Source: Chloroflexota bacterium (lineage in GTDB: Bacteria > Chloroflexota > Anaerolineae > J102). Taken from it: a DNA stretch of 43,094 nt. Under the pieces are notes generated by a model. That model worked only from the letters and a program-made list of their open reading frames with translations, did not search any database and had not been told where the DNA came from. The stretch lies in assembly GCA_013151415.1 (NCBI GenBank), contig JAADII010000033.1:1-43094 (forward strand), given 5' to 3'. A program made the position numbers and the translations under genes. How positions within the stretch are numbered: the first letter of the stretch is position 1; each line of letters begins with the position of its first letter. Of the stretch, positions 3,919 to 27,792 are shown piece by piece.

Positions 3919-6900
3919 TTATTCTTCGGCCATGGCGTCGGCGGAGCATTCCACCGGCAATGTGACGACCACGGTCGTGCCCTGGCCCTCTTTGCTGTGA
4001 ATGTCGATGCCGCCGCCGTGGCGTTGAACCGCGCGCTGGACAATATTCAACCCCAGGCCCGAGCCGGAAATCGCGCCGACATTGCTCGCGCGGTGAAACG
4101 GTTCGAACAGATGCTCTTGGTCCCAGGCGGGAATGCCAATGCCGTGATCTGAGACGCGAAGCATGACGCGGTCATCTTTGCATTCCAGGGCCAGCGTCAC
4201 CTCACTGCCCTTAGATGAATATTTAATGGCATTGGAAAGCAGGTTGTGGCAAATATGGCGCAGCAGACGCTCATCCAGGCGCACGGTTAATTTTGTCGGA
4301 TCATCCAGCGCATCGAGATCGAGCGTCAGCCGGTGATGCGCTCCCATGCCAATGCGAAGCTCCTCCATGATCTCCTGACAAAAGGCGACCAGGTTCAACC
4401 GTTTCGGTTCGAATCGCAGCTTGCCCGCATCCGCTCGGCTCACCAAAAGCACATCATCGATGAGCGCGGTCATGCGCTGCACCGTGCTTTGAATGCGGCG
4501 AAGGTGCATGAGGCGCTTATGTTCGTCCCAACGCTGGCCATAATGCTCCAAAAGTTCGGCCGAAGAGAAAATGGTGGTGAGCGGGGTGCGAAATTCATGA
4601 GAGGCGATGGACAAGAAACGCGATTTCAGCTCGCTCAATTCTTGCTCTTGGGCCAGCGCGCGGCTGACTTCCTCATGAGCCAATCGCAGCTGCTCGTAGG
4701 CCGCCTCCAGCTCGGCCGTGCGTTCGGCCACGCGGCGCTCCAGTTCCGCTGCATGCGCGCGCAGCTCTTCATAAAGGCTGGCGTTTTCCAGGGCCAGGGC
4801 CGTTTGCCCGGCCAGCGCCTCCAAAAATTCCAGCCATTCTTTTCCAAATCCGCGCTGGCTGCGATGGAACGTTTCCAATACGCCCAAAAGCCTATCATGA
4901 GCCACCAAAGGCGCGGCGTAATAGGCCTCGAAACCTTCGGCCACGGCCAACTGAAAGCGCTTGAACGATTCGGTGCGCAGCAAATCGCCTTCACCCAAGG
5001 GCTTGCGCTCCAAAGCCACCTTGCCGGCGTAGCCCTCGCCCAGTTGCAGCCGCGTCGTCTCCACAAGATGGGTGTGAAAACCGCGCCCCGCGGCGAAAGC
5101 CAGCTCCTGCGTCTCGGGATCAAACAACAACACCGAGGCCGCATCCACATTCAGTTGCGTGGTCACCTCTTCTAGCAAGCTGTTCAAGACCTCGTCGCGT
5201 TCGCGACTGCCGGTGATGGCCACATCGATCGCGCGCAAGGCCTGCACGCGACGCAGTCGGCGCAAAGCGTCGGCATAGAGATGGATGCGTCGCAACACAT
5301 TGCCGCCCATCTCGCCCACCGTGGTCAGCACGCGCATTTCCGACTCATCGAAGGGCGCGGCCCCGCTCTCGCGCGCCACCATCAACACGCCGAGCACCGA
5401 TTCTTCGGAAAGCAAGGGCACAAACGCCGCCGGCCCCATGTTCTCGATCTCCGACGCGTATTGGCGCCCTGGCTCTGTGCTCAGAAAATCATCGGACGCG
5501 CACGGGCGCTGCATATTGCTCATCTCTTGAGCAACGGCCTCATCCATTTGCACGCGAAGGCCGGTGAGAGGCAGCAGAAAACCCTGGGCTTGCGATACAA
5601 TGCATTCGCCCCGTTCTGGATCCATCAGTACGATCAAGCTGGCTTCGGCCTCGACCACGGCCCGAGCGCCCGCCAACAAAATGGGCACAGCCTCATCTTC
5701 GGTGAGAATCGAGCGAAGCTGAGCCGATAAATGCGAAAGCGCTTTCAGGGTTTGCAATTGCCGCGCGATCTGAGCCTCTCCCTCTTTTCGCGCGGTGATA
5801 TCCAGCATGCTGGAGATAAAATGGCTGATCTTGCCGTTGGCGTCGCGCAGCGAGGTGATGGACTGATGTTGGATGTAAAGACTTCCGTCCTTTCGACGGT
5901 TGATCAGCTCCCCGCGCCAGGTTTGGCCTGAGAGGATCGTCTCCCACATGGTTCGGTAGAACGCGCGATTGTGCTTGCCCGATTTGAGGATGCTCATCCT
6001 CTGGCCGATCGCCTCCTCTCGCGAGTAGCCTGTTAGCTCGGTGAATGCAGGATTCACCCATTCGATGACGCCCTCGGGATCGGTGATGGCGATGGCGCTG
6101 GCCACTGCATTGAGGGTGGCGCTTTGCAAGCGCAATCGCTCCTCTTGCTTTAGTTGTTCGCTGATATCGCGGAAGATCACCTGAAAGGCCATGCCGTCAT
6201 CCAATTGAATGGGGCTGGCCGTCACCTCCACGGGCAAGATATCGCCATTCACGCGCAAAAAACGCTCGCGCGCCATGGGCGCGGGCTGGCCTGTTTCGGC
6301 CATCTTCTGAATGCGCTCGAAGATCTGGTCGCGGTCGTCAGGGTGAACGAACTCGCCAATGGGACGCCCCACCAAATCGGATGGGTTTTCGACGCCGACC
6401 ATACGCGCGGCCGCGGCATTCAGCGCCACCACCCGACCGTTTCGGTGAATCGCGATCCCCTCCGGCGAAGTTTCGAATAGAAGTCGGTAGCGCTCTTCGC
6501 TCTTGGATAGGGCCGCGATCGCGCGTTCTCGTTCGGTCGATTGCTGCTCCAACGTTTCGGCCATGCTATCGAAGGCTCTGGCCAGACGGCCCATCTCGCT
6601 CAGATCATGGGGCACGCCCGAACGCGCGCTCAGGTCGCCCTCGGCCAATTCGCGGGTCGCGGCGAGCAGTGCGTTCATGCGTCGCATAACGAAAATTTCA
6701 TGACCGGCCCAGGCGGCAATCAGCGCCAGGATTGTCACGACCCCCAGGATGGAGAGCTGGAGCCGCAGCGTGCGGTTGGCCTGGGCGTAGATTTGATCAG
6801 GCGAAAGCCCCACCATCACATGAGCGTCGGGCTCGTAATCGATGTCGATGGGCAATGGCGCATGCGCGTAAAGCCGCATGACGCCATCCACCCCGCGCGC

Positions 6901-9595: not shown

Positions 9596-9671
9596 GGCGA
9601 CGTAGCCAAGTTGGTTAAGGCAGGGGTCTGCAAAACCCCGATCGCGGGTTCGAATCCCGCCGTCGCCTCCA
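9596..9671 (+). tRNA. tRNA-Cys (anticodon GCA)
   Basis: A complete cloverleaf: acceptor GGCGACG pairs with CGTCGCC, the anticodon stem GGGGT/ACCCC encloses CTGCAAA, and the T arm is GCGGG-TTCGAAT-CCCGC. The anticodon GCA is at 9630-9632, the discriminator base is U (normal for Cys), and CCA is encoded. It has its own promoter and terminator. Confidence 0.96.
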
Positions 9672-9878: not shown

Positions 9879-9962
9879 GGGGCGGTGGCGGAATTGGCAG
9901 ACGCAGCGGACTTAAAATCCGCCGTGCTTCGGCACTTGTGGGTTCGAGTCCCACCCGCCCTA
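9879..9962 (+). tRNA. tRNA-Leu (anticodon UAA)
   Basis: A class II tRNA with a long variable arm (CGTGCTTCGGCACTT). The D arm includes GGAATTGGCAGAC, typical of leucine tRNAs. Anticodon stem GCGGA/TCCGC encloses CTTAAAA, anticodon TAA at 9913-9915. T arm GTGGG-TTCGAGT-CCCAC. Discriminator A, no encoded CCA. The first acceptor pair is a G-U. The 258 bp from here to the micro-ORF at 10221 hold no other gene; a TATATT at 10135-10140 might be a -10 element. Confidence 0.95.
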
Positions 9963-10151: not shown

Positions 10152-10181
10152 GTTTGGAAATCGGGGATGGCCGCGCTGTTG
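10152..10181 (+). repeat. Left arm of 30-bp inverted repeat
   Basis: The 30 bases from GTTTGG to CTGTTG recur in inverted orientation at 10507-10536 with a single mismatch (position 10168). Identity ends sharply at both sides. The arms bound a 385-bp segment carrying the micro-ORF. Only an AC dinucleotide is shared at the outer flanks, so no convincing target-site duplication is seen. Confidence 0.92.
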
Positions 10182-10220
10182 CTTCCACCCGTAGCACCCA
10201 GCCTTTTAGGAGGACGCCCC

Positions 10221-10289
10221 ATGAAGTACGAAAAACCCACCCTGGTTAAGCATGAAGAGCTGAAGCAGGTCACGTTCAGCGCTCACTAA
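10221..10289 (+). CDS. 22-residue leader-like peptide (RiPP-precursor-like, no evident core)
   Basis: This micro-ORF has a perfect AGGAGG ribosome site at 10208-10213, seven bases before ATG. It starts MKYEKPTLVKHEELK and ends QVTFSAH. Tyr3, Pro6, Leu8 and Thr18 fit the YxxPxLxxxGxxxxxT pattern recognised by PqqD/RRE-type proteins in lasso-peptide leaders, with Glu12 replacing Gly. The length and the KP...VT spacing also recall PqqA. Only four residues follow the conserved Thr, so it looks like a leader without a core, or a mature short peptide. It lies inside the 30-bp inverted repeat and 271 bp before a B12-type radical SAM gene followed by an NTP_transf_5 gene, a family often seen in lasso and related loci. 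The RiPP call is inference. Confidence 0.6.
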   Translation: MKYEKPTLVKHEELKQVTFSAH

Positions 10290-10460
10290 AGATGGTGTCG
10301 CCCGCTCCTCTGACGCGCGATGAGCAAAGCGTCGGTTTATGGCGCGGGAGCATTTTCCTGTCTTGGGCGTCCGGTTGACCTTGGACGCCACACTCCTTTC
10401 GCGTGCGTCCGGTTGAGGCTCGTCAAAGGCGACGGGATTTCCGGTGCACCAACATCTCAG

Positions 10461-10484
10461 AGAGGGCGGTCGCACCGCCCCTCT
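10461..10484 (+). terminator. Hairpin between the micro-ORF and the radical SAM gene
   Basis: AGAGGGCGGT pairs with ACCGCCCCTCT (one bulge) around a CGC loop, with a short TTTT 12 bases later. It could attenuate read-through from the peptide into the operon. The surrounding 271 bp (10290-10560) also contain GCGTCCGGTTGA twice but no supported gene. Confidence 0.45.
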
Positions 10485-10506
10485 TAGCCTCCGTTTTCTA
10501 GCAACC

Positions 10507-10536
10507 CAACAGCGCGGCCGTCCCCGATTTCCAAAC
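10507..10536 (-). repeat. Right arm of 30-bp inverted repeat
   Basis: Reverse complement of 10152-10181, 29 of 30 identical. It ends 24 bases before the radical SAM start codon; a TATGAT (10540-10545) directly follows and could serve as a -10 for a very short leader. Confidence 0.92.
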
Positions 10537-10560: not shown

Positions 10561-12051
10561 ATGTCAGCCCATGTCTTTCTGATTAACTTTCGAAATCATC
10601 GCGATATGTATCCGCCGTTTGGGATCATGTATGTGGCGGATGCGCTTATGCAGCAGGGGCATCGAGTTCGCATATTCCACGAAACAGGGGACAAGTGGCG
10701 CGATGTGGTGCGTTTGGTGCGAGATGAACGTCCGGATTGGGTGGGTTTTAGCACCATCACAGGGCCACAATTGCGCCCCACCATCGAAGCGACGCGCGCG
10801 GTGAAAGCGTTGGGCGCGCCCACGGTTTGGGGCGGCGTGCATGCCACCATCATGCCCGAAGAGGCGCTCAAAGAGGAGAGCGTCGATTTCGTCATCGTCA
10901 ACGAGGGGGAGATCACGGCCCAGGAGTTTACGGCCGCATTGCTCGAGGGGCGCGGCTTTGAAAATGTGTTGGGATTGGCCTGGCGAGACCAAGATGGCCA
11001 ACCGCATATCAACCCCCCGCGACCCTTCATCACAAATTTGGACGACTTCCGCCCCCGTTGGGAGCTTTTGCCCGATATTCCGGCCTATTTTTTGCAATCC
11101 GGCCCTTATCAACGCGCGATCCCCGTTTACATTTCGCGTGGCTGCCCCTTTCGTTGCGGCTTTTGCTACAACGAAGTGGTGATGAAACGCACCTGGCGGC
11201 CCCATTCACAGGCCTTCGTGCTCGAGCAGGTGCGTTGGTTGCAAGATCATTACGGCATCGACGCCGTGGATTACGCCGACGATTACCTTTTTGGACGCAT
11301 AAAGGCCATGCAGCGCATGGTCGAGGCTGTGGCCTTGCCCTGGAGTGGGCAGGTGCGGGTGCAGCTGCTCAAACCCGAATTTGTGCAATGGATGAGCGAC
11401 ACCGGATGCCAGTGGGTGAATATCGGCGCGGAATCCGGCTCGCAAGCCGTGCTCGATAGCATCGCCAAAGACCAAAAGGCGTGGATGATCGAATGGGGCG
11501 TGCGCAACCTGGCCGAATATGCGCCGCATATCGAAGCGAATCTCAGCTTCATTATTGGCTTGCCCGCGGAAACGCCCGCAGAGCGTCGCGACACGCTCGA
11601 TCTCATCGAGCGCCTATGCGAAATTCATCCCAACGCCCGCTGCTCCATTTCCATTTACATGCCCTATCCCGGCACGCCGTTATGGCCGGACGCGCTCGCG
11701 CGCGGGTATCAACCGCCTCAGAGCCAGATGGGGTGGAGCGAATTCGATATCCATAAAGGCAACACGCCCTGGGTGGACGAAACCGAGGGGCGCATCATGT
11801 CGGAGATTTGCGACATTTTGTTTGTGGGCCGCAGCCAGGGCCATTGGCTTCTCAAGCCCTATTATGGTTTGCTGCGTTGGCGTTGGCGCAAGGGCTTTTT
11901 CAAATGGTATGTCGAGGGCGCTCTAAAGACCAAAGGCGGACAATTGGTGGAGCGCATCGGCTTTTTGCGCGCCTTGCGCGACAAACTTGCGCCGCGCCTG
12001 GTTCGTTACAATGCGAATACGCACCGAGGCCCCGCGGCCGAAGCGATATAA
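10561..12051 (+). CDS. B12-binding-domain radical SAM enzyme
   Basis: A 496-residue class B-like radical SAM protein. Residues 1-140 form a Rossmann-like cobalamin-binding domain (FGIMYVADALMQQGH, then VWGGVHATIMPEEAL and a DFVIVNEGE loop). The radical SAM core starts at SRGCPFRCGFCYN, with cluster cysteines 195, 199 and 202 in C-x3-C-x2-C. A GAESGS motif and FIIGLPAETPAE follow, as usual in this superfamily. The enzyme should use SAM and probably cobalamin for a methylation or a C-C/C-S bond change. The substrate is unknown; an envelope lipid or glycan or the upstream peptide are options. ATG at 10561 gives the family's usual N-terminus although the Shine-Dalgarno is poor. The next gene starts seven bases after its stop. 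Confidence 0.85.
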   Translation: MSAHVFLINFRNHRDMYPPFGIMYVADALMQQGHRVRIFHETGDKWRDVVRLVRDERPDWVGFSTITGPQLRPTIEATRAVKALGAPTVWGGVHATIMPEEALKEESVDFVIVNEGEITAQEFTAALLEGRGFENVLGLAWRDQDGQPHINPPRPFITNLDDFRPRWELLPDIPAYFLQSGPYQRAIPVYISRGCPFRCGFCYNEVVMKRTWRPHSQAFVLEQVRWLQDHYGIDAVDYADDYLFGRIKAMQRMVEAVALPWSGQVRVQLLKPEFVQWMSDTGCQWVNIGAESGSQAVLDSIAKDQKAWMIEWGVRNLAEYAPHIEANLSFIIGLPAETPAERRDTLDLIERLCEIHPNARCSISIYMPYPGTPLWPDALARGYQPPQSQMGWSEFDIHKGNTPWVDETEGRIMSEICDILFVGRSQGHWLLKPYYGLLRWRWRKGFFKWYVEGALKTKGGQLVERIGFLRALRDKLAPRLVRYNANTHRGPAAEAI

Positions 12052-12058
12052 AGTGACA

Positions 12059-13246
12059 ATGACTCATGCTCTGCCCGCGCCCGCGCGAGACCTGTTCGCC
12101 CTCTTACGCGGGGATCCCGTTGAACCGGCCGATTGGGATGCGGTGGGGGTCTACGCGCTCTCGTTGGGGCTGGGCCCGCTCTTGTTGGAGACCGCGGCCG
12201 AACGCCTGCCGCCCCTATTGAGCGCTCGCTTGCGATTGGCCGCGCGACGCACCGAATTGCGCACTCGCGCCCTGCTGGACGCGCTGGCCGAAGTGCTCCA
12301 GATGTGCAACCAACAAGGCGCGCCCGCGCTCGTGCTCAAAGGCGCATATATGGCCCCCGCCATCTACAAGAATTTGAGCCTGCGTAGCATGAGCGATATC
12401 GACTTGCTCATCGAGCCGCATGCATTCACCCAATTTCAGGCCATCATGAAGGCTTTGGGTTACGAGGGTAAACACACCGATCCCCAAAGCGGACCGGGCA
12501 TTGTCAAGCATGAGTGGACCTATCAGCGAGCCAACAGCCCCAAAGCCGCGGCCAACCCCCTTCTCTTCGGAGGCGAAAGCCTGTTCATCGAACCCCATGT
12601 CTCACTGACGGAAAGCTGGTTTGGATTGAAGGTCGGGCTGACCCACGACGTTTGGTCGCGACGCGTTGAATGGCGACTGCGCGACTCCTCGGGCCGTTCA
12701 CACCTGGCCTATGCTCTTTGTCCTGAAGACGCCTTGTTGCACGCGGCCATCCATGCCATTTTCCATTTGCTGATGGGCAAGGCCGCGTTCATTCAGTTAT
12801 ACGATATCCGTCGTTTGCTCGAAGTTCAGGTTGATCTCGATTTCGAAGCCCTTCTGGCCACTGCGCTCCATCCCGATGTGAGCGCGAGCGCGCATCTTTT
12901 GGCCGCGCTTCGTTTGGCCCGCGATGCATATGCCGCGCCGGTTCCTCGATTGTGGCTGGAGCGCTTGAGCGAGGCTTGCCCCTCCCGACAGCGCGAAGCC
13001 GCGTTGGCGCTCTCTTTGGAGCGGATGTGGCGCATGAGCCAGCAAGCCCCCCTCACCACACTCGCCCAGCGTTTGCGGCGCGGCATGCGAGATCGGTTTG
13101 TGGCTGCGGCCTGGGCGCGCGACCGTCGCGAGGTCTTGCGCGTGTGGCGGAGTGCGTTTCTCTTCCATCGCACCGACACCGCGCGGTTGCTCTTGGCGCG
13201 CTTGTCGTCGCGAAGCGAGCGTTCGAACTCCAAGGCCCCGGGTTGA
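12059..13246 (+). CDS. Nucleotidyltransferase family protein (NTP_transf_5-like)
   Basis: This 395-residue protein contains LVLKGAYMAPAIYKN (Lys about 94) and SMSDIDLLIEP (Asp about 113 and 115), the two signatures of the NTP_transf_5 uncharacterised nucleotidyltransferase family. The paired Asp residues match the metal site of the nucleotidyltransferase fold. Family members occur in lasso-peptide, PqqD-linked and exopolysaccharide clusters, but their reaction is not established. A GTG at 12053 is an in-frame alternative start. It lies directly behind the radical SAM gene and is probably cotranscribed. The 133-bp gap that follows has a weak TTGGTC...TAAAAT pair and no other feature. Confidence 0.78.
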   Translation: MTHALPAPARDLFALLRGDPVEPADWDAVGVYALSLGLGPLLLETAAERLPPLLSARLRLAARRTELRTRALLDALAEVLQMCNQQGAPALVLKGAYMAPAIYKNLSLRSMSDIDLLIEPHAFTQFQAIMKALGYEGKHTDPQSGPGIVKHEWTYQRANSPKAAANPLLFGGESLFIEPHVSLTESWFGLKVGLTHDVWSRRVEWRLRDSSGRSHLAYALCPEDALLHAAIHAIFHLLMGKAAFIQLYDIRRLLEVQVDLDFEALLATALHPDVSASAHLLAALRLARDAYAAPVPRLWLERLSEACPSRQREAALALSLERMWRMSQQAPLTTLAQRLRRGMRDRFVAAAWARDRREVLRVWRSAFLFHRTDTARLLLARLSSRSERSNSKAPG

Positions 13247-13379
13247 GCCAAGCGTCCATCGCGCGTCAAGATGATGGTTGTTGACTCCGCGTCGCCATAA
13301 TGAAACTCGCGGTTGCCCAACCCTCACTTCACTCCCCGGCGGATTGGTCGTAACAGCGAATGGATTGTAAAATCCCCGC

Positions 13380-14633
13380 ATGATGCGTGTAATCCGCCTT
13401 GCCATCGCCATTCCCCTGCTTCTGTTCAGCTTCCGTCGCCTGATCTTTACACTGGTTGCGCTTTTCACCCCCGCCACCAGGCCGCCGGCGACCGATGAGC
13501 CGCCTCGCGATCTGCTCGTGTTGGTTCCCTGTCGCAACGATGGGGCCAGTTTGCCTGGCCTGGTGGACGCGTTGCTCGAGAACGGTTACCCACTGGATCG
13601 GCTTAAGATCATGCTCATCGACGATGGTTCTGACGACGACAGCGCCGCGATCATGCAGGCATTGGCCCGGCGGCGGCCGCAAGTCGTCCGAGTCATTCAT
13701 TTGCCTGCGAACGTTGGCAAGGCGGCCGCCCTCAATGCAGCGCTCGCCGACGAGTCGTGGGGAGATGTGGTCGCGGTTTACGACGCGGACCATCGTCCCC
13801 AACCTGGCGGCCTGGCCATGCTTGTGCAGGGGTTTGCCGATCCGCACGTGGGCGCGGTGAGCGGTCGCACCGAACCGCGCAATGCGCTGGCTTCGCCCGC
13901 GGCCTATTACAGCGCGGTCGAACGGTTGGTGCATCAGCGCATTACGCTGGTGGCCAAAGACCGTTTGAATCTGGCTCCGGCCATTCTTGGCTCCCATTGC
14001 GCGTATCGTCGTTCTCTGCTCGAGGCTTTGGGCGGTTTTACGGCCGGCGCCTTTCTCGAGGACAGCGATCTCACTGTGCGCATTGCGGCGGCGGGTTATC
14101 GCACCCGATATCTCGAGAGCATCCCCGCGATGGACGAAGCCCCAGCCACGCTCGCGGGCTATTGGCGGCAACATGTGCGCTGGTCGCGCGGCTTTCAAGA
14201 TGTGGCGGTTCAGCATGGTCGGGGCGTGCTTCGCGGGCCTCTGCCCTGGCCTTTGCGTCTCGAACTTTTTCTCTTCAGTTTAGGCTATCTCGACCGTTTG
14301 GCCCTCTTGGCTGCGGCCGCATCCATGTTTTCGGATGCGGTCTTTGGCGCTCGTTTTCGTTTTCCGCGCGCCTTATTCGCGGCGGTTTTGGCCCTGCCCT
14401 ATTTGCAAATTATGGCCGCGTTTGTACGGGCCAGGGTTGCACTGACCTGGTGGTTGAGGTTGCCTTACGTGTTTCTCCTTTTTCCCGTGGATGTGGCCGC
14501 CGCGGTGCGCAGCACATTGGACACTCTCCTCGATCGCCCTCGTCATTGGCGACCTACGGCCAAACAACCGACGGCCAGCCAACCCTATGTCGCCATCGAC
14601 AAGCCAAAGGCGACCATGCCTCGTGAATTGTGA
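13380..14633 (+). CDS. Membrane-bound processive-type glycosyltransferase family 2
   Basis: A 417-residue inner-membrane glycosyltransferase resembling hyaluronan/cellulose synthase-type GT2 enzymes. An N-terminal membrane segment (residues 4-30) is followed by the GT-A core: VPCRND, LIDDGSDDD, DADH, ED in FLEDSDLT and Q264-H-V-R-W268, the QxxRW signature of processive enzymes. Membrane helices follow near 300-375. It probably extends a polysaccharide from a UDP-sugar at the cytoplasmic face. The last residues (PTAKQPTASQPYV) are encoded by the same kind of short word repeat found at other gene ends here. Its TGA overlaps a possible GTG start of the next gene (GTGA). Confidence 0.88.
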   Translation: MMRVIRLAIAIPLLLFSFRRLIFTLVALFTPATRPPATDEPPRDLLVLVPCRNDGASLPGLVDALLENGYPLDRLKIMLIDDGSDDDSAAIMQALARRRPQVVRVIHLPANVGKAAALNAALADESWGDVVAVYDADHRPQPGGLAMLVQGFADPHVGAVSGRTEPRNALASPAAYYSAVERLVHQRITLVAKDRLNLAPAILGSHCAYRRSLLEALGGFTAGAFLEDSDLTVRIAAAGYRTRYLESIPAMDEAPATLAGYWRQHVRWSRGFQDVAVQHGRGVLRGPLPWPLRLELFLFSLGYLDRLALLAAAASMFSDAVFGARFRFPRALFAAVLALPYLQIMAAFVRARVALTWWLRLPYVFLLFPVDVAAAVRSTLDTLLDRPRHWRPTAKQPTASQPYVAIDKPKATMPREL

Positions 14634-14683
14634 ATCGCGCACCCCTTGCGGCCCATTTGCATCAGGAACTACGCAACAGGACT

Positions 14684-16096
14684 ATGATTTCGAAACCCAA
14701 TGAGCATGTGATTATTTTGGGCGGAGGCGTTGCCGGCCTCGCCACCGGACTCGAACTGATTCGTCGCGGTCGCCGCGTCACGGTCATTGAAAAGGGCGAA
14801 CGCGTGGGCGGTCTTGCGCGCACTTTGGTTTATGGCGATTTTCGTTTTGACATAGGCGGTCATCGCTTCCATAGCCATAAGCCCGAGATCATCGCCTGGA
14901 TAAAAGAGTTGATGGGCGCTGATCTGTTGCGCGTGCCCCGCATTAGCCACATTTATCTTCAAAACAAGTTTGTGGACTATCCCCTGCGTTTTCCCAACGC
15001 CTTGAGCATTTTCAGCCCGCCTCAGGCCGCGCGCATTTTGGCCAGCTATGGCGCGGCCGCGTTGCGGCGTCGGTTGAACGGTCGCAAAAAGGATGTGTCC
15101 TTTGAAGATTGGGTGGTGCATCGCTTTGGCCGGGCCATGTTCGACGTCTTCTTCGGCCCTTACACCGAAAAAGTGTGGGGCATTTCCTGTCAGGAGCTTT
15201 CGGCCGATTGGGCGGCTCAGCGCATCAGCTTGCCCAGCCTCACCGAGGCCGTGAAGCGGGCCATTGCGCCGGGCGCGGAGCCCCCCTCCACCATCATCTC
15301 TCATTTTTGGTACCCGCGCGCGGGCTTTGGCATGATTCCCGACCGCATGAGCGAGGAAATAGAGCGTTTGGGCGGTCGCGTGCTCACTTCGGCGTCGGTG
15401 GCCGCTCTGGAGCCGAGATCGGATGGTGGATGGCGGGTGCATGTGCAAGAGCGGGATGGCGTTCAGCGCCTGACCGGCGATCGGGTCATTTCCTCCATCC
15501 CCCTCCATTATTTGCTGGCCGCGCTGCCTCCTGAAAGCGGCGCAGCCGACATTGCGCGGCGGTTTAGCTTGAGCTATCGCGACATGGTGTTGTTGTTCCT
15601 GGCGCTCAAGATCCCGCGAGTGAGCGAAGACAGTTGGACTTATTTCCCGCAAACCGAGCTCTTGTGCGGACGCACGCACGAGCCGCGTAATTGGAGCGCC
15701 GAAATGGCGCCAGAGGGCCGCACCTCGCTGGCGGCCGAAGTGTTCACCAGCCGCGGTGAGGCGACTTGGGAAATGTCGGACGAGCAGTTGGTGGCGCGCG
15801 CGGTGCGCGAATTCGAAGAAATTGGTTTCTTGCCGCCCCATAGCTTGATGGACGCCTGGGTGCTGCGCGTGCCCTATGCCTATCCGGTCTATTATATTGG
15901 TTATGCTGAAAAAGTGCGCCGAGTGCGCGAGTTTCTAGACGCCGCTTTCCCCGATCTTCATTTGGTGGGGCGCACAGGTTCGTTTCGCTATATGAACAGC
16001 GACGGCGTCATCGAAGATGCGCTTGCGCTTACCGATTATCTAACCGGCACACGCCATGAGTATGTCGATGTCAGCAAAGACTACAAGGTGGACTGA
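14684..16096 (+). CDS. FAD-dependent UDP-galactopyranose-mutase-like oxidoreductase
   Basis: A 470-residue protein starting with an FAD-binding Rossmann fold (IILGGGVAGLATGLEL, then a VIEKGERVGGLART motif) and DIGGHRFHS, as in UDP-galactopyranose mutase and related NAD(P)/FAD amine-oxidase-like proteins. The C-terminal FAD contact region reads GRTGSFRYMNSDGVIEDAL. In glycan loci such proteins isomerise or oxidise nucleotide sugars; the precise reaction is not inferable. ATG at 14684 starts the fold directly; a GTG at 14630 that overlaps the previous stop would add 18 residues and coupling. The next gene overlaps its end by 41 bases. Confidence 0.82.
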   Translation: MISKPNEHVIILGGGVAGLATGLELIRRGRRVTVIEKGERVGGLARTLVYGDFRFDIGGHRFHSHKPEIIAWIKELMGADLLRVPRISHIYLQNKFVDYPLRFPNALSIFSPPQAARILASYGAAALRRRLNGRKKDVSFEDWVVHRFGRAMFDVFFGPYTEKVWGISCQELSADWAAQRISLPSLTEAVKRAIAPGAEPPSTIISHFWYPRAGFGMIPDRMSEEIERLGGRVLTSASVAALEPRSDGGWRVHVQERDGVQRLTGDRVISSIPLHYLLAALPPESGAADIARRFSLSYRDMVLLFLALKIPRVSEDSWTYFPQTELLCGRTHEPRNWSAEMAPEGRTSLAAEVFTSRGEATWEMSDEQLVARAVREFEEIGFLPPHSLMDAWVLRVPYAYPVYYIGYAEKVRRVREFLDAAFPDLHLVGRTGSFRYMNSDGVIEDALALTDYLTGTRHEYVDVSKDYKVD

Positions 16097-17153
16097 GCCG
16101 AATATTTCGGTCGTCATCCCGGCGCTAAACGCCGCCTCGTTTCTGCCAGACCTTATTCGCGCTCTGCAAGAGGGCGAATCGCCGCCCGAAGAGATCATCG
16201 TGGTGGATGACGGTTCGTCCGACGAAACGGCCGCGCTCGCCCGTTCGTTGGGCTGTCGAATTTTTCACACGCCCGCGGCCCGTTCGGGCCCGGCTATGGC
16301 TCGCAATCTGGGCGCGTTGCACGCCCAGGGCGACATTCTCTTCTTTCTCGACGCGGATGTGGTTCCTCATCGAGACGCGGTCGCGCGAGTGCGCGCGGCC
16401 TTTGCTTCCGACGCGGCCCTCGATGCGATTTTCGGCTCTTATGACGATCAGCCCACTGATCCCGCCTTTCTCAGTCAATATAAGAATCTTTTTCATCATT
16501 ACGTGCATCAGATGAGCTCGGAAGACGCCAGCACATTTTGGACGGGATGCGGCGCCATTCGTCGCGAGGCGTTTCTCGATTTGGGCGGTTTCACCGATGA
16601 TTATGGCCGGCCATGCATTGAAGACATCGAGTTGGGTTATCGTTTGGGGCGACGCGGCGGCCGCATCCGTCTGGACAAGGGGTTGCTGGTCACCCATCGC
16701 AAACGCTGGACTCCATTGGGTTTGCTGCGCACCGACATCCTGGACCGGGGCATCCCCTGGGCCGAGTTGATATTGCGACACGGCGCTTTTGTCAACGACC
16801 TGAACTTGCAAACAAAAAATCGCATTAGCGTGGCTGCGTTTTGGTTGTTGATGCTCAGCCTGGCGCTGGCCGCCATGTGGTCGGGGTGGATGCTGTTGGC
16901 GGCCCTGGGATTGGGACTATGGCTGTTGCGGCTCAATTGGCCGTTGTATCGCTGGTTCGCTCAGAAGCGAGGCTGGTGGTTCGCGATGCGGGTGATTCCC
17001 TGGCATTGGCTCTATTATGGTTACAACGCCGTGGCCTTTGCTTTGGGCGCGCTGGCCCATGCGCGTTCGGCCTTTGCACGCGGACATCTTCACCCAGAGC
17101 GACCCGGCGCCCTTATTCAGATGCAGCAAGTCAACCATCTGGAAACTTCGTGA
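16056..17153 (+). CDS. Glycosyltransferase family 2 with C-terminal membrane helices
   Basis: A 365-residue GT2 protein. The core shows SVVIPALNA, VVDDGSSDETA, FFLDADVVPH (DxD metal site) and a C-terminal acidic IEDIELGYRLGRRGG. Two or three hydrophobic segments follow from about 265 to 345. It should transfer a single sugar to a lipid-linked or membrane acceptor. The start (MSMSMSAK) overlaps the preceding gene by 41 bases, and internal ATGs two and four codons later are equally possible. It is one of two glycosyltransferases flanking the mutase-like gene, which supports one assembly line. Confidence 0.86.
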   Translation: MSMSMSAKTTRWTEPNISVVIPALNAASFLPDLIRALQEGESPPEEIIVVDDGSSDETAALARSLGCRIFHTPAARSGPAMARNLGALHAQGDILFFLDADVVPHRDAVARVRAAFASDAALDAIFGSYDDQPTDPAFLSQYKNLFHHYVHQMSSEDASTFWTGCGAIRREAFLDLGGFTDDYGRPCIEDIELGYRLGRRGGRIRLDKGLLVTHRKRWTPLGLLRTDILDRGIPWAELILRHGAFVNDLNLQTKNRISVAAFWLLMLSLALAAMWSGWMLLAALGLGLWLLRLNWPLYRWFAQKRGWWFAMRVIPWHWLYYGYNAVAFALGALAHARSAFARGHLHPERPGALIQMQQVNHLETS

Positions 17154-17155
17154 CC

Positions 17156-19267
17156 ATGTCGCATATGCCCATCGACGGCCGGCGTAGCCGCATGCTGTTT
17201 CTAACGTTTATGCTTCTCGCCGGCTATGCGCTACGCGTTGTCAACCTGGGTGAGGCCTCCCTGTGGCTGGATGAGCTCATTCAGGTTCAGCTTGCTCGCG
17301 CGCCCTTGCGCGAGATGTTCCAGTTGGTTTTTGCGCACGCCAATACGCCAGTCGATGTGCTCATCACCAAGACCTTGTTGCGGTTTGGGCGGCAGGACGC
17401 CTGGTTGCGCATGTCTTCGGCCTATATGGGCGTTCTCAGCATTCCGCTCATCTACGCGCTCGCGCGCAAATTGCTCCCGCGCCCTGGCCCTTTGGTGACA
17501 GCCTTGCTTTTCACCCTGGCCCCCCTCGCCATCATGCATCATCGCGAGGTTCGGCCTTACGCCACCTTCTTGATGCTCGCTCTACTCAGCACATTGCTCT
17601 TTCTTTGGTCGTTGGAAAAGCAGGGGTTGTGGCCCTTTTTCGCTCTCAGTTTTCTTTTTTTGCTCCACACCCATCTCTTTTCTCTGGCTTTATTGGCCGT
17701 TTACGGGTTGTATTGGCTTGTTTGGCTATTGCCCAAGGGTCTGCGCGCTCGCGATTCGCGTCGGTGGCTGCTCGCGCCTGCGGCGCTGGCATTGACCACC
17801 ATCGCCTTTCTGCTTTCGCCGGCATCGCCCGACTATGTTGGGCGATTCACCCGAGCTGTTTTGCAAGGGATCAGCGGGCCGCGAGCCATGGAGACCCTCT
17901 CGCTCGCGGCCACCACCTATCCCTTCCCCGGTTTTGCGCCCATCGTCAAGCGCATTCCTCAGGATTTCAGCGGCGCGCAGCCGGCCGGCCTGCCCGCGTT
18001 GGGCCTTTTGTTCATGGGGCTTTGGGGCATGCGACGCCGGCCGCGCGCGCTTTTTTTCCTCCTGACATGGCTCATCCTCATACCGGCGGCCATCGTTTTT
18101 GCGCTTTATCAACGCGATCATTGGTTTAGCCCGCGCTACATTATTCACGCCTTGCCGCCGTTCATCATGCTGGTGGGCATGGGCGCGGTGACGCTGGCCC
18201 GGTGGCTGGCGAATGGCGCTGAGCTCATCTTGCGTCGCCGGTCGCGACGACCGGCCCTTTTTCCCTTTGCGCTTGCCGCCGTTCTCGCGCTCTACTTTTG
18301 GCAGACCGCGCCCGCCCTGGCCCAGGCGCGCGGCCCATCGCGCGAAAATCTACGCGACGGCGCCGCGTTCTTGCAACAAACATACCAACCCGGCACGCTC
18401 ATCATCGCGCCGCTGGTGGGGCCTTATTTGCTAGGCCATTACCTGCCAAAAGAGATGGATGTCGTCGATTTCCAAAGCCCGGTTTTGGTCGAATCGGTCG
18501 CACAGAACTACGAACGAGCCTTTCTCTTGCAAACCGTCTACAGCCATCTCACCCCGCGCAACACCTCCTGGCTGACGCAGGAAAATCTTGTAGCCGCCTT
18601 TCAGCCCGGCGTCGAGATATATCGCGCGCCGGCCGGAGAGGAGGCGCGCAAACGGGTTCAGATGCGCATCAAGGCCATTTTGAGCGGCGACCAAGACGTT
18701 TCTCTCGCCGAGCTGAAGCGCATGGCCGCGGAAGCGCGAAAGCTCAAAGATTGGCCGCTGACCATTCAAATTTGGGAGCATTTCTTGCAGCAAGCGCCCA
18801 ATGATTCGGCCGCCTGGACCGAGTTGGGATTGGCTTATCGTCAGGCCGAGCGTCTCGACGCGGCCATCGACGCGTATCAGAGGGCCATCGAGTTGGCCCC
18901 CAACAACGCCTGGGCTCATCTGCTTCTGGCCAATGCGTTGCGCCTAAACGGCCAGCCCGAAACCGCTCTACGCCATGCGCAAGACGCGGTTGACATCGCC
19001 CCGCATTTGCCAGATGCGTGGTCGGCTTTGGGATTCGCTCAACTGGAATTGGGCGATGCGGTCGCGGCCCGCGCAGCCTTCGAACGCGGTCTCGAACAAA
19101 GAGCCGATGCGCTTATGTTGCGCTATGGTCTGGCGCAAGCCGCATCGGCCGCCCGCGATTCAGATGCGGCCGAGCTCTGGCAAGCGCTTCTCGATCTGAA
19201 CCCGCCTTCTTTCATGCGAAACGCCGCCTGCAAGCATTTGCAAAACGCTCACACCCTTTGCCCATGA
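17156..19267 (+). CDS. GT-C (GT39/ArnT-like) glycosyltransferase with TPR tail
   Basis: A 703-residue protein. The first ~430 residues are polytopic, with SLWLDELIQV in the first extracytoplasmic loop; Asp39-Glu40 match the catalytic acid pair of GT-C enzymes that use polyprenyl-phosphate sugars outside the membrane. From about residue 530 come tetratricopeptide repeats (WTELGLAYRQAERLDAAIDA, AWAHLLLANALRLNG, AWSALGFAQLELG). The TPRs probably bind a partner in the envelope. The start lies two bases after the previous stop, and the end overlaps the next gene by ATGA, so this is clearly operonic. Confidence 0.84.
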   Translation: MSHMPIDGRRSRMLFLTFMLLAGYALRVVNLGEASLWLDELIQVQLARAPLREMFQLVFAHANTPVDVLITKTLLRFGRQDAWLRMSSAYMGVLSIPLIYALARKLLPRPGPLVTALLFTLAPLAIMHHREVRPYATFLMLALLSTLLFLWSLEKQGLWPFFALSFLFLLHTHLFSLALLAVYGLYWLVWLLPKGLRARDSRRWLLAPAALALTTIAFLLSPASPDYVGRFTRAVLQGISGPRAMETLSLAATTYPFPGFAPIVKRIPQDFSGAQPAGLPALGLLFMGLWGMRRRPRALFFLLTWLILIPAAIVFALYQRDHWFSPRYIIHALPPFIMLVGMGAVTLARWLANGAELILRRRSRRPALFPFALAAVLALYFWQTAPALAQARGPSRENLRDGAAFLQQTYQPGTLIIAPLVGPYLLGHYLPKEMDVVDFQSPVLVESVAQNYERAFLLQTVYSHLTPRNTSWLTQENLVAAFQPGVEIYRAPAGEEARKRVQMRIKAILSGDQDVSLAELKRMAAEARKLKDWPLTIQIWEHFLQQAPNDSAAWTELGLAYRQAERLDAAIDAYQRAIELAPNNAWAHLLLANALRLNGQPETALRHAQDAVDIAPHLPDAWSALGFAQLELGDAVAARAAFERGLEQRADALMLRYGLAQAASAARDSDAAELWQALLDLNPPSFMRNAACKHLQNAHTLCP

Positions 19268-21252
19268 TCATGAAACCGACACAAATCCTTGCCGCCGGAC
19301 TCCTCATCGCGGGGTTGCCCGCCATAGTGCGCAGCATGCGCCGTCGCCACCGTTGGGAAAGCCGCAATCGCCAGGTTTATATCGCGCTCTATTTCGAGCA
19401 AATGAGCATTGCCGCCACGCGCGCGGGGCGGCCGCTCTATGATTTCCTGCACGAATGCCGGCATCATGGCGCCACCCATATCGCCATTCTCGAAGACACT
19501 CTCGACAGCCTGATGGCTTCCGGTCGGCTCATTCCCGTGGCTTGCGACCAGCCTCATCAACATCTCTTCGAAGGGTCAGCCGATCTCATCGTGCGCCTGC
19601 GCGATGAATTCGCCGCGCGCGCGGCCCATTGTTTGGTGGATGCAAATCCTGAAGCGGGAACCCTGAAGCTGCAAGGCGATTTGCGCGCGTTGCGCCCCCT
19701 GGGGCTGGGTTTCGACGCCGAGGTCTTCGCCAGGGCTCGCGACGCGGGTTTGCAGCTTATTGCTCGACCTGTGAGCTATCCCTGGCCCACCGCAGAAACC
19801 ATCGAACGCACCCTGTCTCAGGCCGCTGAACTGGGCGCGCGCATCATTTCTTTCGCTGGCGATCCCTTGCTTGGCCATGAGATGCATCTCAACGCCACCG
19901 CGGCCAGCCTTCGTCGTCATCGACTCATCGCCACCTATTTTCCCGATAGCCGTCATCAACGCGGGGATTGGTTCATTGCCAAGAGCGCGGCCGAACGCAC
20001 GTTGCTGGCCCTGCGCTTCACTTTGGCCGATCTGGATAAGGGCGACGAGTCCAGCATTGCCTACCAGGCCGCGCTACGCGCGCGCGAGGGCGGCATTCGC
20101 CTCATCTTCGCCGATACATATATTGGCGTTCATGCAACCACGCCCACGGCCATATTGCACTATCTGGATGAACTGGTTCACGCCCTGGTTCATCATGAAG
20201 GCTTTGTTATCGATATTCCGCAACATCATCACCACCATGACGATGACGGGCATGCTCATGAACATGGCGAGCATGAGCACGGACATCATCATCATCATCA
20301 TGGACATGAGCACGCGCACGGGCGCGAACTTTCATGGCCCGATCCTTTGCCCCTCGAACGCGTCGTTCCTCATATCGAACGATTTTTCGAGACGCCCGGC
20401 GCGGACGCAGGACGTTACACCGCGCGCGTCACCGATCTGACTCCGGCGGCCGTGGGGTTGGGCCTGTTGGCATTGGATCGAATGGCGAGTTTGCCTTCCA
20501 TCGTGGGGTTGGCGTTGGCCGCGCTGGGGTTGGCCGCGGGCGAACGTCTGGCTCCATGGCTCGATCAACCTCGCGATGCGCTGGAGCGCGCATACGCCCC
20601 ATCCTATTTGCCTAAGTTGCTCGCGCTTGGCGCGTTGGCTACAGGCGGGGCCGCGGGGCCCTCTTCATTGGCGGTGGCGCCGGTTGCAGGTCTGTTGGCC
20701 GCGGCCGCCACGGCGAATCCTGAATATTATTTGCGCATCGAAGCCATTCGCACATACGGTCTTGATTGGAGCCTCCCGCTGGCCGTGCAATTGGCGGCCG
20801 AGCCGCCGCCTTTGCTCGCGGGTGGCTGGCGTTGGGGCGCGGCATTGGTCGCACTCACCGCGCCTCTGTGGTTGCGCGGTCGCCTGCCGGCCGATCTCAT
20901 CGATGTCCTGGATCGCGAGCACCCCAGCGGGCACACCCACCATCTCAGCGCGGCTCAGCGCGCGCTGGGCGACGCGCGTATGGCCATGAGCGCTCAACCT
21001 TTGCGAAAATGGGCCGGTTTGGTGTGGCTGTGGCCGGTGCATTCGGCGCTGCCGGCTCAGTCCACGATGCGTTCGTTGGCCGGGCTTGCGGCCACGGTTG
21101 GCGCTGTCGCCACAGCCGGGACATTGCGCAATCCCAGCCGACCTATTGCGCTCTCTTTGGCTCAGGTTTTTCGTAGTTGGGTTGTTCATGCGCCCTTTTA
21201 TCTCGCCGCATCGCTCGCGCTCGCGGCCGGCCAGGGGCCGAGCGGAAAATAA
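19264..21252 (+). CDS. DUF5693-like membrane protein with a histidine-rich loop
   Basis: A 662-residue membrane protein. After an N-terminal membrane segment (8-24), residues 40-310 resemble DUF5693 (YIALYFEQM...THIAILEDTLDSLMASGRL), a domain known beside polysaccharide pyruvyl transferase (CsaB) in envelope loci. Residues about 320-355 form a metal-binding-like tract of alternating His, Asp, Glu and Gly, including HHHHHDDDGHAHEHG and HHHHHHGHEHAHG. A hydrophobic region with several membrane helices follows from about 395 to the end. Function unknown; a role in export or assembly of the glycan is inferred from position between the GT-C gene and the flippase. The start overlaps the upstream stop (ATGA). 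Confidence 0.7.
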   Translation: MIMKPTQILAAGLLIAGLPAIVRSMRRRHRWESRNRQVYIALYFEQMSIAATRAGRPLYDFLHECRHHGATHIAILEDTLDSLMASGRLIPVACDQPHQHLFEGSADLIVRLRDEFAARAAHCLVDANPEAGTLKLQGDLRALRPLGLGFDAEVFARARDAGLQLIARPVSYPWPTAETIERTLSQAAELGARIISFAGDPLLGHEMHLNATAASLRRHRLIATYFPDSRHQRGDWFIAKSAAERTLLALRFTLADLDKGDESSIAYQAALRAREGGIRLIFADTYIGVHATTPTAILHYLDELVHALVHHEGFVIDIPQHHHHHDDDGHAHEHGEHEHGHHHHHHGHEHAHGRELSWPDPLPLERVVPHIERFFETPGADAGRYTARVTDLTPAAVGLGLLALDRMASLPSIVGLALAALGLAAGERLAPWLDQPRDALERAYAPSYLPKLLALGALATGGAAGPSSLAVAPVAGLLAAAATANPEYYLRIEAIRTYGLDWSLPLAVQLAAEPPPLLAGGWRWGAALVALTAPLWLRGRLPADLIDVLDREHPSGHTHHLSAAQRALGDARMAMSAQPLRKWAGLVWLWPVHSALPAQSTMRSLAGLAATVGAVATAGTLRNPSRPIALSLAQVFRSWVVHAPFYLAASLALAAGQGPSGK

Positions 21253-21305
21253 GCGCGGCGGCCGCCTCGATAGCCTTTCTCATCTCTTCGCTTTCTCATC
21301 GGTTC

Positions 21306-22757
21306 ATGTCATCGGCCCGCACCGCCGCACGAAATCTTTCAGCCATCAGCTTGCACAAAGGCGCCCAGATATTGGGGGCCTTTGCTTTTGCCGCGCTTGT
21401 GCCCCGTTCGTTGGGCGCCGAGTTGTTCGGTCAGCTCTCTTTCGTCCTCTCCCTCAGCCTGCTTTTGCAAATGCCCGGCGATTTGGGCGGGTTGGACATC
21501 ATCGGCCGGTTCGTGCCCGGCTGGGCGCAAGAGGACGAGTCGGGACGAAGAAAAATCGTCTGGCTCACATGGCACCTGATAGCGCTTCGCTTGCTCATTG
21601 GTTTGGCCGTCACCCTGGTGAGCGTCCCGCTCGCGCCGCGGCTGGCAAGTTGGCTTACGCCTCTCGACGGCTTGCTCATCGGTTTGTCCGCGGCCATTCG
21701 CCTGCTTTCGTGGACGCCTTTTCATCTCAGCTTTGGGTTGGGGCGCATGGGCCGTTGGTCGGTGGAGCTCGCGTGGCGGCAATTGGTCATGACGCCATTT
21801 TTGCTGGCTTTTGCGCGTTGGGGCGTCACCGGCCTGCTCGCGGGCCTGGCGTTGAGTGAGGCGCTGTTCCTGTTGCTGGGCCATTATTGGATCCGCCCTT
21901 ATCTTCGCGTCCAGTCTTTCGATTGGCCCGCCCTTCGCCCTTATTTGCGATTCGGCGCTGGCTTTTTCTTGGCCAATATCGTCATTGTGGCGCTCTATCG
22001 GTTGGGGCCGGTGTTGCTAGAGGTGCTTGCTCGCAACACGGTCGCGGTGGGTTACTTCAATCTGGGCGTGAGCGTATATATGATGCTTCTCGTCATCCTC
22101 ACCCAGTATATGAGTTCTTTCGTCCCGATGTTATCCTTGTTTCACCGTCGCGGCGAACTGGCCGCGGCTCAGCGGTGGTTGGATCGCATGGTGCGATATA
22201 CGGCCGTGCTCATGGGCGTGATCATCATTGGCATGTTTATGCTCATGCCTGCGGTTGCGCCTCTTCTCTTTGGCGCCGACTTTGCTCCCGTGACGCGCAT
22301 CATGTTATTGCTCGCGTTGGCTTTGTTGGCGCAGCCTTTGGTTTGGGCTGGCCGTTATGCAGCGGTGTCGTTTGGTCACCCGCGCGCGGCCTTTTATGCC
22401 ACATTGTTCGGCTTGCTGGCTTTTCTTGCCGTTAGTCCGGCGCTCATGCCCCGTTTTGCAGCCGATGGCGCGGCTCTTGCGCTGGGATTTGGCGTTGTGG
22501 TCATGGCGGGGGTCTATCTTTGGTTGGGCCGAGAGTGGTTAAAATCGCCCTGGCTCGCGTTGGCCGCCGCCTATCTGCCCTTATCCGCGCTCCTTTTCAT
22601 CTACGATCCCGCCCGCGACTTGATGTCTGGCTTGTTATGGAGCGCGTTGCTGATCCCGCTCTATCTGTTTCTGCTCTGGCTGTTGCGCGTGGTCACCACC
22701 GCCGAATTGGCGCAGATGCGCGCGGCGTTCATGCCCGGCGGCGCGCCCAAACGCTGA
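21306..22757 (+). CDS. Wzx-like polysaccharide flippase (MOP superfamily)
   Basis: A 483-residue polytopic protein with about 12-14 hydrophobic segments. The N-terminus (ISLHKGAQILGAFAFAALVPRSLG...FGQLSF) is typical of O-antigen/teichoic-acid flippases, which carry lipid-linked oligosaccharides across the membrane. It is the last gene of the glycan operon, 53 bases after the DUF5693-like gene. The next gene downstream converges on it with only 25 bases between stops, and no clear terminator is visible. Confidence 0.85.
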   Translation: MSSARTAARNLSAISLHKGAQILGAFAFAALVPRSLGAELFGQLSFVLSLSLLLQMPGDLGGLDIIGRFVPGWAQEDESGRRKIVWLTWHLIALRLLIGLAVTLVSVPLAPRLASWLTPLDGLLIGLSAAIRLLSWTPFHLSFGLGRMGRWSVELAWRQLVMTPFLLAFARWGVTGLLAGLALSEALFLLLGHYWIRPYLRVQSFDWPALRPYLRFGAGFFLANIVIVALYRLGPVLLEVLARNTVAVGYFNLGVSVYMMLLVILTQYMSSFVPMLSLFHRRGELAAAQRWLDRMVRYTAVLMGVIIIGMFMLMPAVAPLLFGADFAPVTRIMLLLALALLAQPLVWAGRYAAVSFGHPRAAFYATLFGLLAFLAVSPALMPRFAADGAALALGFGVVVMAGVYLWLGREWLKSPWLALAAAYLPLSALLFIYDPARDLMSGLLWSALLIPLYLFLLWLLRVVTTAELAQMRAAFMPGGAPKR

Positions 22758-24987: not shown

Positions 24988-25087
24988 TTTTTCGGCGATT
25001 TTCCGCGTCGAAATGCGCGAAGCGCGGTGATGATGCGGACGAAGGGGGGAAACCGTCTCAATCTATCGCCCTTGTATCTTCCTTAAG

Positions 25088-25117
25088 ATTGTATGCTAAA
25101 ACTTTCGTATGTCGCAA
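25088..25117 (-). promoter_or_regulatory. Possible promoter for the GAF-PAS-GAF kinase
   Basis: The minus strand reads TTGCGA, 18 bases, TACAAT, about 100 bases before the kinase start. The remaining 24988-25200 spacer shows nothing else. Confidence 0.45.
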
Positions 25118-25200
25118 ATCAAGATCGCGCTCGACGTGAAGCGCCTAAGCCATTTTCCGCCTTCTCCTCTGGATGCGGCCAATAGTTCGCGCCCCTCCTC

Positions 25201-27678: not shown

Positions 27679-27792
27679 ACGTCATCTTCCTTTTCTTTGA
27701 TGGATGTCAGAGGTGGTTCCAAAGGGCGCAGGTAGTGAAAAAATCCCTTGAACAATCACCGTTGATGCATTCTCAAACATAAGTGTACGCGT

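Follow-up and report, generated by a model that had tools for sequence, protein, structure and literature searches.

Unequal expression of a RiPP precursor and its enzymes is usually ascribed to terminators or to separate promoters. Among described RiPP systems, the linear polyphosphorylated peptides (LPP) were reported in 2026 from Bacillota polysaccharide loci that encode an RRE, an HprK-like kinase and an NTP transferase, and their precursors carry the motif YxxPxVLxHQxIxFETxxS (PMC13381572). In LPP the leader peptidase is a SipW-like signal peptidase (SpI). The motif bound by the RRE, [Y/W]xxPx[L/V/I], is described in the same paper. At the level of RNA, it is known from pre-rRNA that distant complementary sequences form an RNase III site (Young and Steitz 1978, as cited in PMC5371410), and in E. 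coli the selective processing and stabilisation of operon RNA has been described, in which stem-loops act together with RNase E, PNPase and other enzymes (PMC10667835). The mRNAs of type I toxins such as hok and aapA, finally, contain a stable long-distance helix between their 5' and 3' parts (PMC6733600). Here we describe a locus of Chloroflexota in which a conserved RNA helix appears to bracket the ORF of a RiPP precursor, and we consider it fairly probable that excision of the RNase III type separates the precursor message from that of the enzymes.

The window, that is the whole stretch of DNA that was analysed, is 43,094 nt long (contig JAADII010000033.1, positions 1-43,094, assembly GCA_013151415.1; Chloroflexota, Anaerolineae, J102). 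A repeat search located two inverted-repeat arms of 30 nt at 10152-10181 and 10507-10536, which are 97% complementary (29/30) and 325 nt apart, at exactly the coordinates and with the 29 of 30 opposite match given in the original prediction. The single position that is not a Watson-Crick pair is T10168 against G10520, which is a U-G wobble in the RNA of the plus strand, and the right (3') arm thus pairs with the left (5') arm, both on the plus strand, by 29 Watson-Crick pairs and one G-U pair. The 20-bp core that was aligned to relatives is 10161-10180 in the left arm. The pairing of these arms is far above chance: their own pairing score was 55 whereas the left side scored at most 23 against the right sides of other loci, and the folding energy of the segment was -175.6 kcal/mol (z = -6.0), a value that 0 of 100 shuffles equalled. 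Between the arms, all on the plus strand, lie a Shine-Dalgarno sequence for the peptide ORF, AGGAGG, seen directly at 10208-10213, the ORF of a predicted RiPP precursor of 22 residues, MKYEKPTLVKHEELKQVTFSAH, at 10221-10289, which is assigned on its conservation in 27 copies, and a strongly structured loop spacer at 10290-10506 whose sequence differs between lineages. The loop also holds an imperfect 23-nt direct repeat (83%) at 10356-10378 and 10394-10416. Upstream of the element are genes for tRNA-Cys (9596-9671) and tRNA-Leu (9879-9962). A tRNA-Leu is directly upstream in three sister genomes as well, and the precursor may therefore be co-transcribed with it.

The first enzyme gene 3' of the helix is that of a B12-binding radical SAM protein (10561-12051, plus strand). 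Its ATG at 10561 is 24 nt past the end of the right arm, and it is the first of eight collinear genes (10561-22757) that follow this arm, as had been foreseen. The NTP_transf_5 (PF14907) gene comes next at 11987-13246 on the plus strand, its real start being probably within this ORF, and in most other lineages it is this gene that follows the peptide. The remaining operon (13380-22757, plus strand) encodes two GT2 glycosyltransferases, a FAD/UGM-like oxidoreductase, a PMT/TPR membrane protein, a DUF5693 protein and, as the product of its last gene, which is without a Pfam match, a probable flippase-like membrane protein. Right after the operon, on the minus strand, there are three consecutive genes for multi-domain histidine kinases (PAS/GAF/Cache) at 22783-30459.

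The first three relatives of this locus were found by DNA similarity in sister genomes of the same family. In these the radical SAM gene is about 80% identical and the peptide and an inverted repeat are at the corresponding place, the letters of the arms being different from those of the window (sister core, GGGTAGCTGCGCTGTC). A scan with the radical SAM family gave 24 close orthologs, from Caldilineales, Anaerolineales, Anaerolineae, Ardenticatenaceae or just Chloroflexi. Besides the three sisters about 17 more Anaerolineae genomes of several further families carry the peptide, and further loci, in families f12, f35, f43 and f45, came from pattern searches that were blind to strand, the family of the window being f1. 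In the loci L064, L077, L078 and L079 the peptide precedes the NTP_transf_5 gene and not the radical SAM gene; an inverted repeat brackets the peptide in the first three of these, and in L079 the helix is absent and a local 12-bp hairpin is found 3' of the peptide instead. One pattern match (L113) was rejected as a chance match that lacks Y-x-K-P. When about 260 genomes of Chloroflexota classes other than Anaerolineae were searched the peptide pattern had no match, but the pattern was strict and this absence makes the distribution given here a lower bound. The comparison set consisted of 22 loci with 27 copies of the peptide. Long-range inverted-repeat arms enclose the peptide in 21 of the 22 loci examined, the loop closed by the helix being 150-400 nt across loci, and in G661 and G667-G670 two tandem peptide ORFs lie within one repeat.

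When the peptide copies were compared it was found that they are 21-29 residues long and follow the consensus Y-x-K-P-x-[LIVM]-x-K-H-x-x-L-x-x-[VIM]-T-F-S-x-H-stop. The residues Y, K, P, K, H, L, T, F, S and the final H were invariant in 27/27 copies, an invariance that is partly by construction because several of them were in the search patterns (Y and P for some loci). The excess of codon differences at third positions, 3365 as against 1545 and 1244 at the other two in the 27 copies, is not by construction, nor is the presence of the peptide in the three sisters, and this pattern of substitution indicates that the peptide ORF is a real coding sequence. The RRE-binding motif is present, with Y and P in all 27 copies and, at the third defined position, L, I or V in 24 and M in 3. 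The lasso-leader profile NF033521 matched only below its cut-off. The C-terminal end is fixed as TFS[S/A/M]H, so that at most four residues come after the conserved T. The micro-ORF had been called leader-like in the original prediction, and its sequence does resemble a leader; as judged from its conservation, however, it is a conserved RiPP precursor and not the leader of an attenuator.

The arms were then compared by local alignments. A core of 20 bp gave a gapless alignment over the 21 arm pairs, of which the 20 distinct sequences were used for covariation. In these, standard pairing was found in 94.0% of the core cells as against 73.0% after shuffling, a percentage that is biased upward because the right arms were picked by their pairing with their own left arms; the bias is limited by a swap control, in which own pairs scored 30-55 and foreign pairs 16-22 on average, with close relatives as the exception. 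Two-sided compensatory change was seen in 19 of the 20 core pairs, with 94 cells altered on both sides, and the covariation score was 0.700 compared to 0.275 for shuffled and not more than 0.193 for slid partners. None of five covariation measures was reached by any shuffle. Thus, the arm sequences differ between lineages yet remain complementary, and the helix has a mean pair probability of 0.75-0.99 in ensemble predictions. Amid this freely covarying helix, core pairs 9, 10, 14 and 17 are near-invariant, being either invariant or the same in 19/20. A search of Rfam 15 returned only tRNAs at the gathering score and no credible match at E <= 0.3.

Covariation by itself could also come from recombination between the arms, and it is only the G-U bias, the orientation and the promoter position that separate the two explanations. 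Since covariation is also expected of arms that belong to a DNA switch or to recombining repeats, a strand test was used, in which the expectation for DNA is that the transition mismatches G-U and A-C are equally frequent. Within the arms there were 30 G-U and 6 A-C mismatches, and 16 and 4, respectively, when these were collapsed by clade and column (p = 0.006); G298b, with two A-C mismatches and zero G-U, goes against this bias. In a consensus scan, sigma-70-like sites with p <= 0.01 were found 5' of the left arm in 9/21 loci and in none of the loops, and the site of the window itself is weak (p = 0.20). Promoter-like sites at this position make it probable that the transcript includes the left arm. 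The orientation of the peptide toward the next gene is identical in 21/21 stem elements, most of which came from strand-blind searches. Taken together, the covariation, the G-U bias, the promoter position and the fixed orientation lead us to state with high confidence that the inverted repeats are a conserved long-range mRNA helix. An RNA stem that loops out the peptide had been one of three options put forward at the outset, and it is the one that the compensatory changes and the G-U bias favour. The other two options were at the level of DNA. In Bacteroides, invertible inverted-repeat elements are found before capsule loci, and inverted repeats before a glycan operon would fit phase variation through a site-specific inversion that flips the peptide segment or a promoter inside it. 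We regard this as very improbable, given that the promoter-like sites are outside the arms and none in a loop is significant, that the mismatches lean toward G-U, that the flipped order looked for in related genomes was never seen, and that no recombinase domain is present among the window proteins scanned, which agrees with the initial observation that the window has no recombinase gene. A MITE, or another small mobile element that ends in inverted repeats, has the geometry around a short segment in its favour but is if anything even less credible. In the 4.5-Mb draft genome no copies of the 30-mer were found besides the two arms, nor was there a second copy of the segment; there is no obvious target-site duplication, as no direct repeat stands out when the flanks CTGTCCAC and ACCTATGA are compared; and across several families the element keeps one fixed context, before the NTP_transf_5 or the radical SAM gene of the same type of operon, with compensatory change.

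This leads to the question of what the mRNA helix does. It would probably serve to excise the precursor mRNA by a cut of the RNase III type, or to stabilise this mRNA. In the excision model, transcription would start upstream of the left arm, and a helix of about 20-30 bp would close a loop with one or two precursor ORFs directly before the first modifying-enzyme gene. RNase III or a similar nuclease would then cut the helix, which has about two or more A-form turns, and thereby release the message of the precursor from that of the enzymes. The precursor, which is needed in excess, and the enzymes, which are needed in catalytic amounts, would in this way have separate stability and translation. 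RNase III accepts helices from about two turns upward, and a gene for it is present in the genome of the window (258.9 bits). The length of the helix, its position between the promoter and the first enzyme gene, the bracketed ORFs and the presence of RNase III together favour excision, and it is from these that we infer cleavage, the nuclease and an effect on expression. In the group G298/G661/G666-G670 (L099, L102, L104, L106, L108-L111) the right arm and the ATG of NTP_transf_5 are separated by -2 to 17 nt and a Shine-Dalgarno sequence is missing in most cases, so that cutting would leave a nearly leaderless message, and leaderless translation of NTP_transf_5 after cleavage is possible. Against excision, the loop of G666 (L106) has an apparent intrinsic terminator, a GC-rich hairpin followed by T7, about 50-90 nt past the conserved His codon, which means that only read-through RNA could form the helix there. 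The four near-invariant core pairs are a hint at a sequence-specific binder rather than at generic RNase III. It may be, and we propose this only tentatively, that there is a lineage-wide cis-RNA family in which the helix excises one or two ultra-short precursor ORFs with the tail FSSH or similar, some lineages being left with a nearly leaderless NTP_transf_5 message, and in which the core is recognised sequence-specifically.

Two other ways in which an RNA helix could work have to be set against excision. The helix may act without being cut: it could protect the precursor mRNA from exonucleases, in the manner of a clamp or an insulator, or it could be the site at which a dedicated RNA-binding protein docks. 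We take this to be unlikely though well worth considering, since the near-invariant core pairs and the predicted very high stability of the stems agree with it while the length of the helix suits RNase III, this enzyme is encoded in the genome and no candidate binding protein was identified. Less probable again, and to our mind doubtful, is that the helix serves as a translational lock or an attenuator in the way of the 5'-3' interaction of hok and aapA, or that it controls the enzyme gene that follows. A small ORF is enclosed by a long-distance helix here as it is in toxin mRNAs (PMC6733600), the NTP_transf_5 start close to the right arm and mostly without a Shine-Dalgarno sequence in the group G298/G661/G666-G670 could be read in this way, and most right arms of family f45 have a U-run at their end; but the missing Shine-Dalgarno sequence and the U-run are each confined to one lineage, the Shine-Dalgarno sequence of the peptide is outside the arms, and masking of the initiation region by the helix was unsupported, as the predicted unpaired probability of the region was nearly the same with and without it. 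The U-run as a terminator was likewise rejected because of its confinement to f45. In three loci of that family (L089-L091) the right arm is a GC-rich helix followed by 6-7 T, which resembles a long-loop terminator.

As for the system that the excised precursor would serve, the loci L138 and L139 encode PqqD and a B2-like peptidase, and in L078 a PqqD-type RRE, a B2-like peptidase, an HprK-like kinase and an asparagine-synthase-like protein adjoin the radical SAM gene. The B2-like profile NF033537 was above its cut-off in 2/3 proteins tested and slightly under it in the protein of the window genome, which is encoded on another contig and is 52% identical to that of L078; an HprK-like kinase was not found beside it. 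A Transglut_core3 protein is encoded in 9/9 genomes tested. The YxxPx[L/I/V] leader motif, the PqqD-type RRE, the B2-like peptidase, the HprK-like kinase and the NTP transferase are shared with lasso clusters of the paeninodin type. However, the core of the present peptide is too short for a ring, and the asparagine-synthase-like protein scored 241.9 bits where the lasso cyclase cut-off is 525, both of which speak against a lasso peptide. The window genome has a second RiPP-like cluster (L141, G000:C18:25000-36861; 363-1613, 3931-6111 and about 5937-6272) with NTP_transf_5, an asparagine-synthase-like protein, a weak PqqD match and a better-scoring Transglut_core3 protein, which is apparently a paeninodin/lasso-type locus separate from the peptide of the window.

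Neither Rfam nor the open-licence papers searched, which included those on NTP_transf_5/PF14907 and on RiPP precursors together with RNase III or RNA structure, gave an earlier description of the helix or of the peptide family. Helices of long range that enclose a functional RNA are already known, as are LPP-like peptides, and it is the combination, a covarying helix around RiPP precursor ORFs, that is new. It adds a device at the level of RNA to RiPP biology, in the form of a strongly covarying mRNA helix around a whole ORF. Like the RNase III stems of pre-16S and pre-23S rRNA, distant complements here form a long helix that loops out a functional RNA; unlike in those, the loop is the mRNA of a tiny RiPP precursor, is only 150-400 nt long, and its cleavage would be by analogy. 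As in the selective processing of operons (PMC10667835), stems and cleavage in a polycistronic mRNA would set the ratio of gene products, with the difference that here a single long-range helix brackets the whole ORF. With hok and aapA the element has in common a small ORF within a stable long-distance helix, but its initiation region is predicted to be unmasked, no antisense RNA is known, the ORF appears to be that of a RiPP precursor, and the helix stands between this ORF and an operon. The peptide itself is closest to LPP, with which it has Y, P, [L/V], H, [L/I], T and S in common without any change of spacing, and the systems are alike in the RRE (PqqD), the HprK-like kinase, the NTP transferase and the setting in a polysaccharide locus; by analogy, the Ser of the peptide would be phosphorylated. 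The present system differs in its B12-radical SAM, DUF5693 and FGE-like partners, in its B2-like peptidase and in its occurrence in Chloroflexota. LPP precursors are 35-200 aa long with variable C termini, whereas the present ones have 21-29 residues and end four residues after the conserved T, one residue past the Ser of the motif. The match of the motif at identical spacing together with this early stop identifies the peptide, on sequence grounds, as an LPP-like RiPP precursor with an ultra-short tail, and thereby defines a very small precursor family of Chloroflexota envelope-glycan operons, with four residues past the conserved threonine, that is related to the newly reported LPP.
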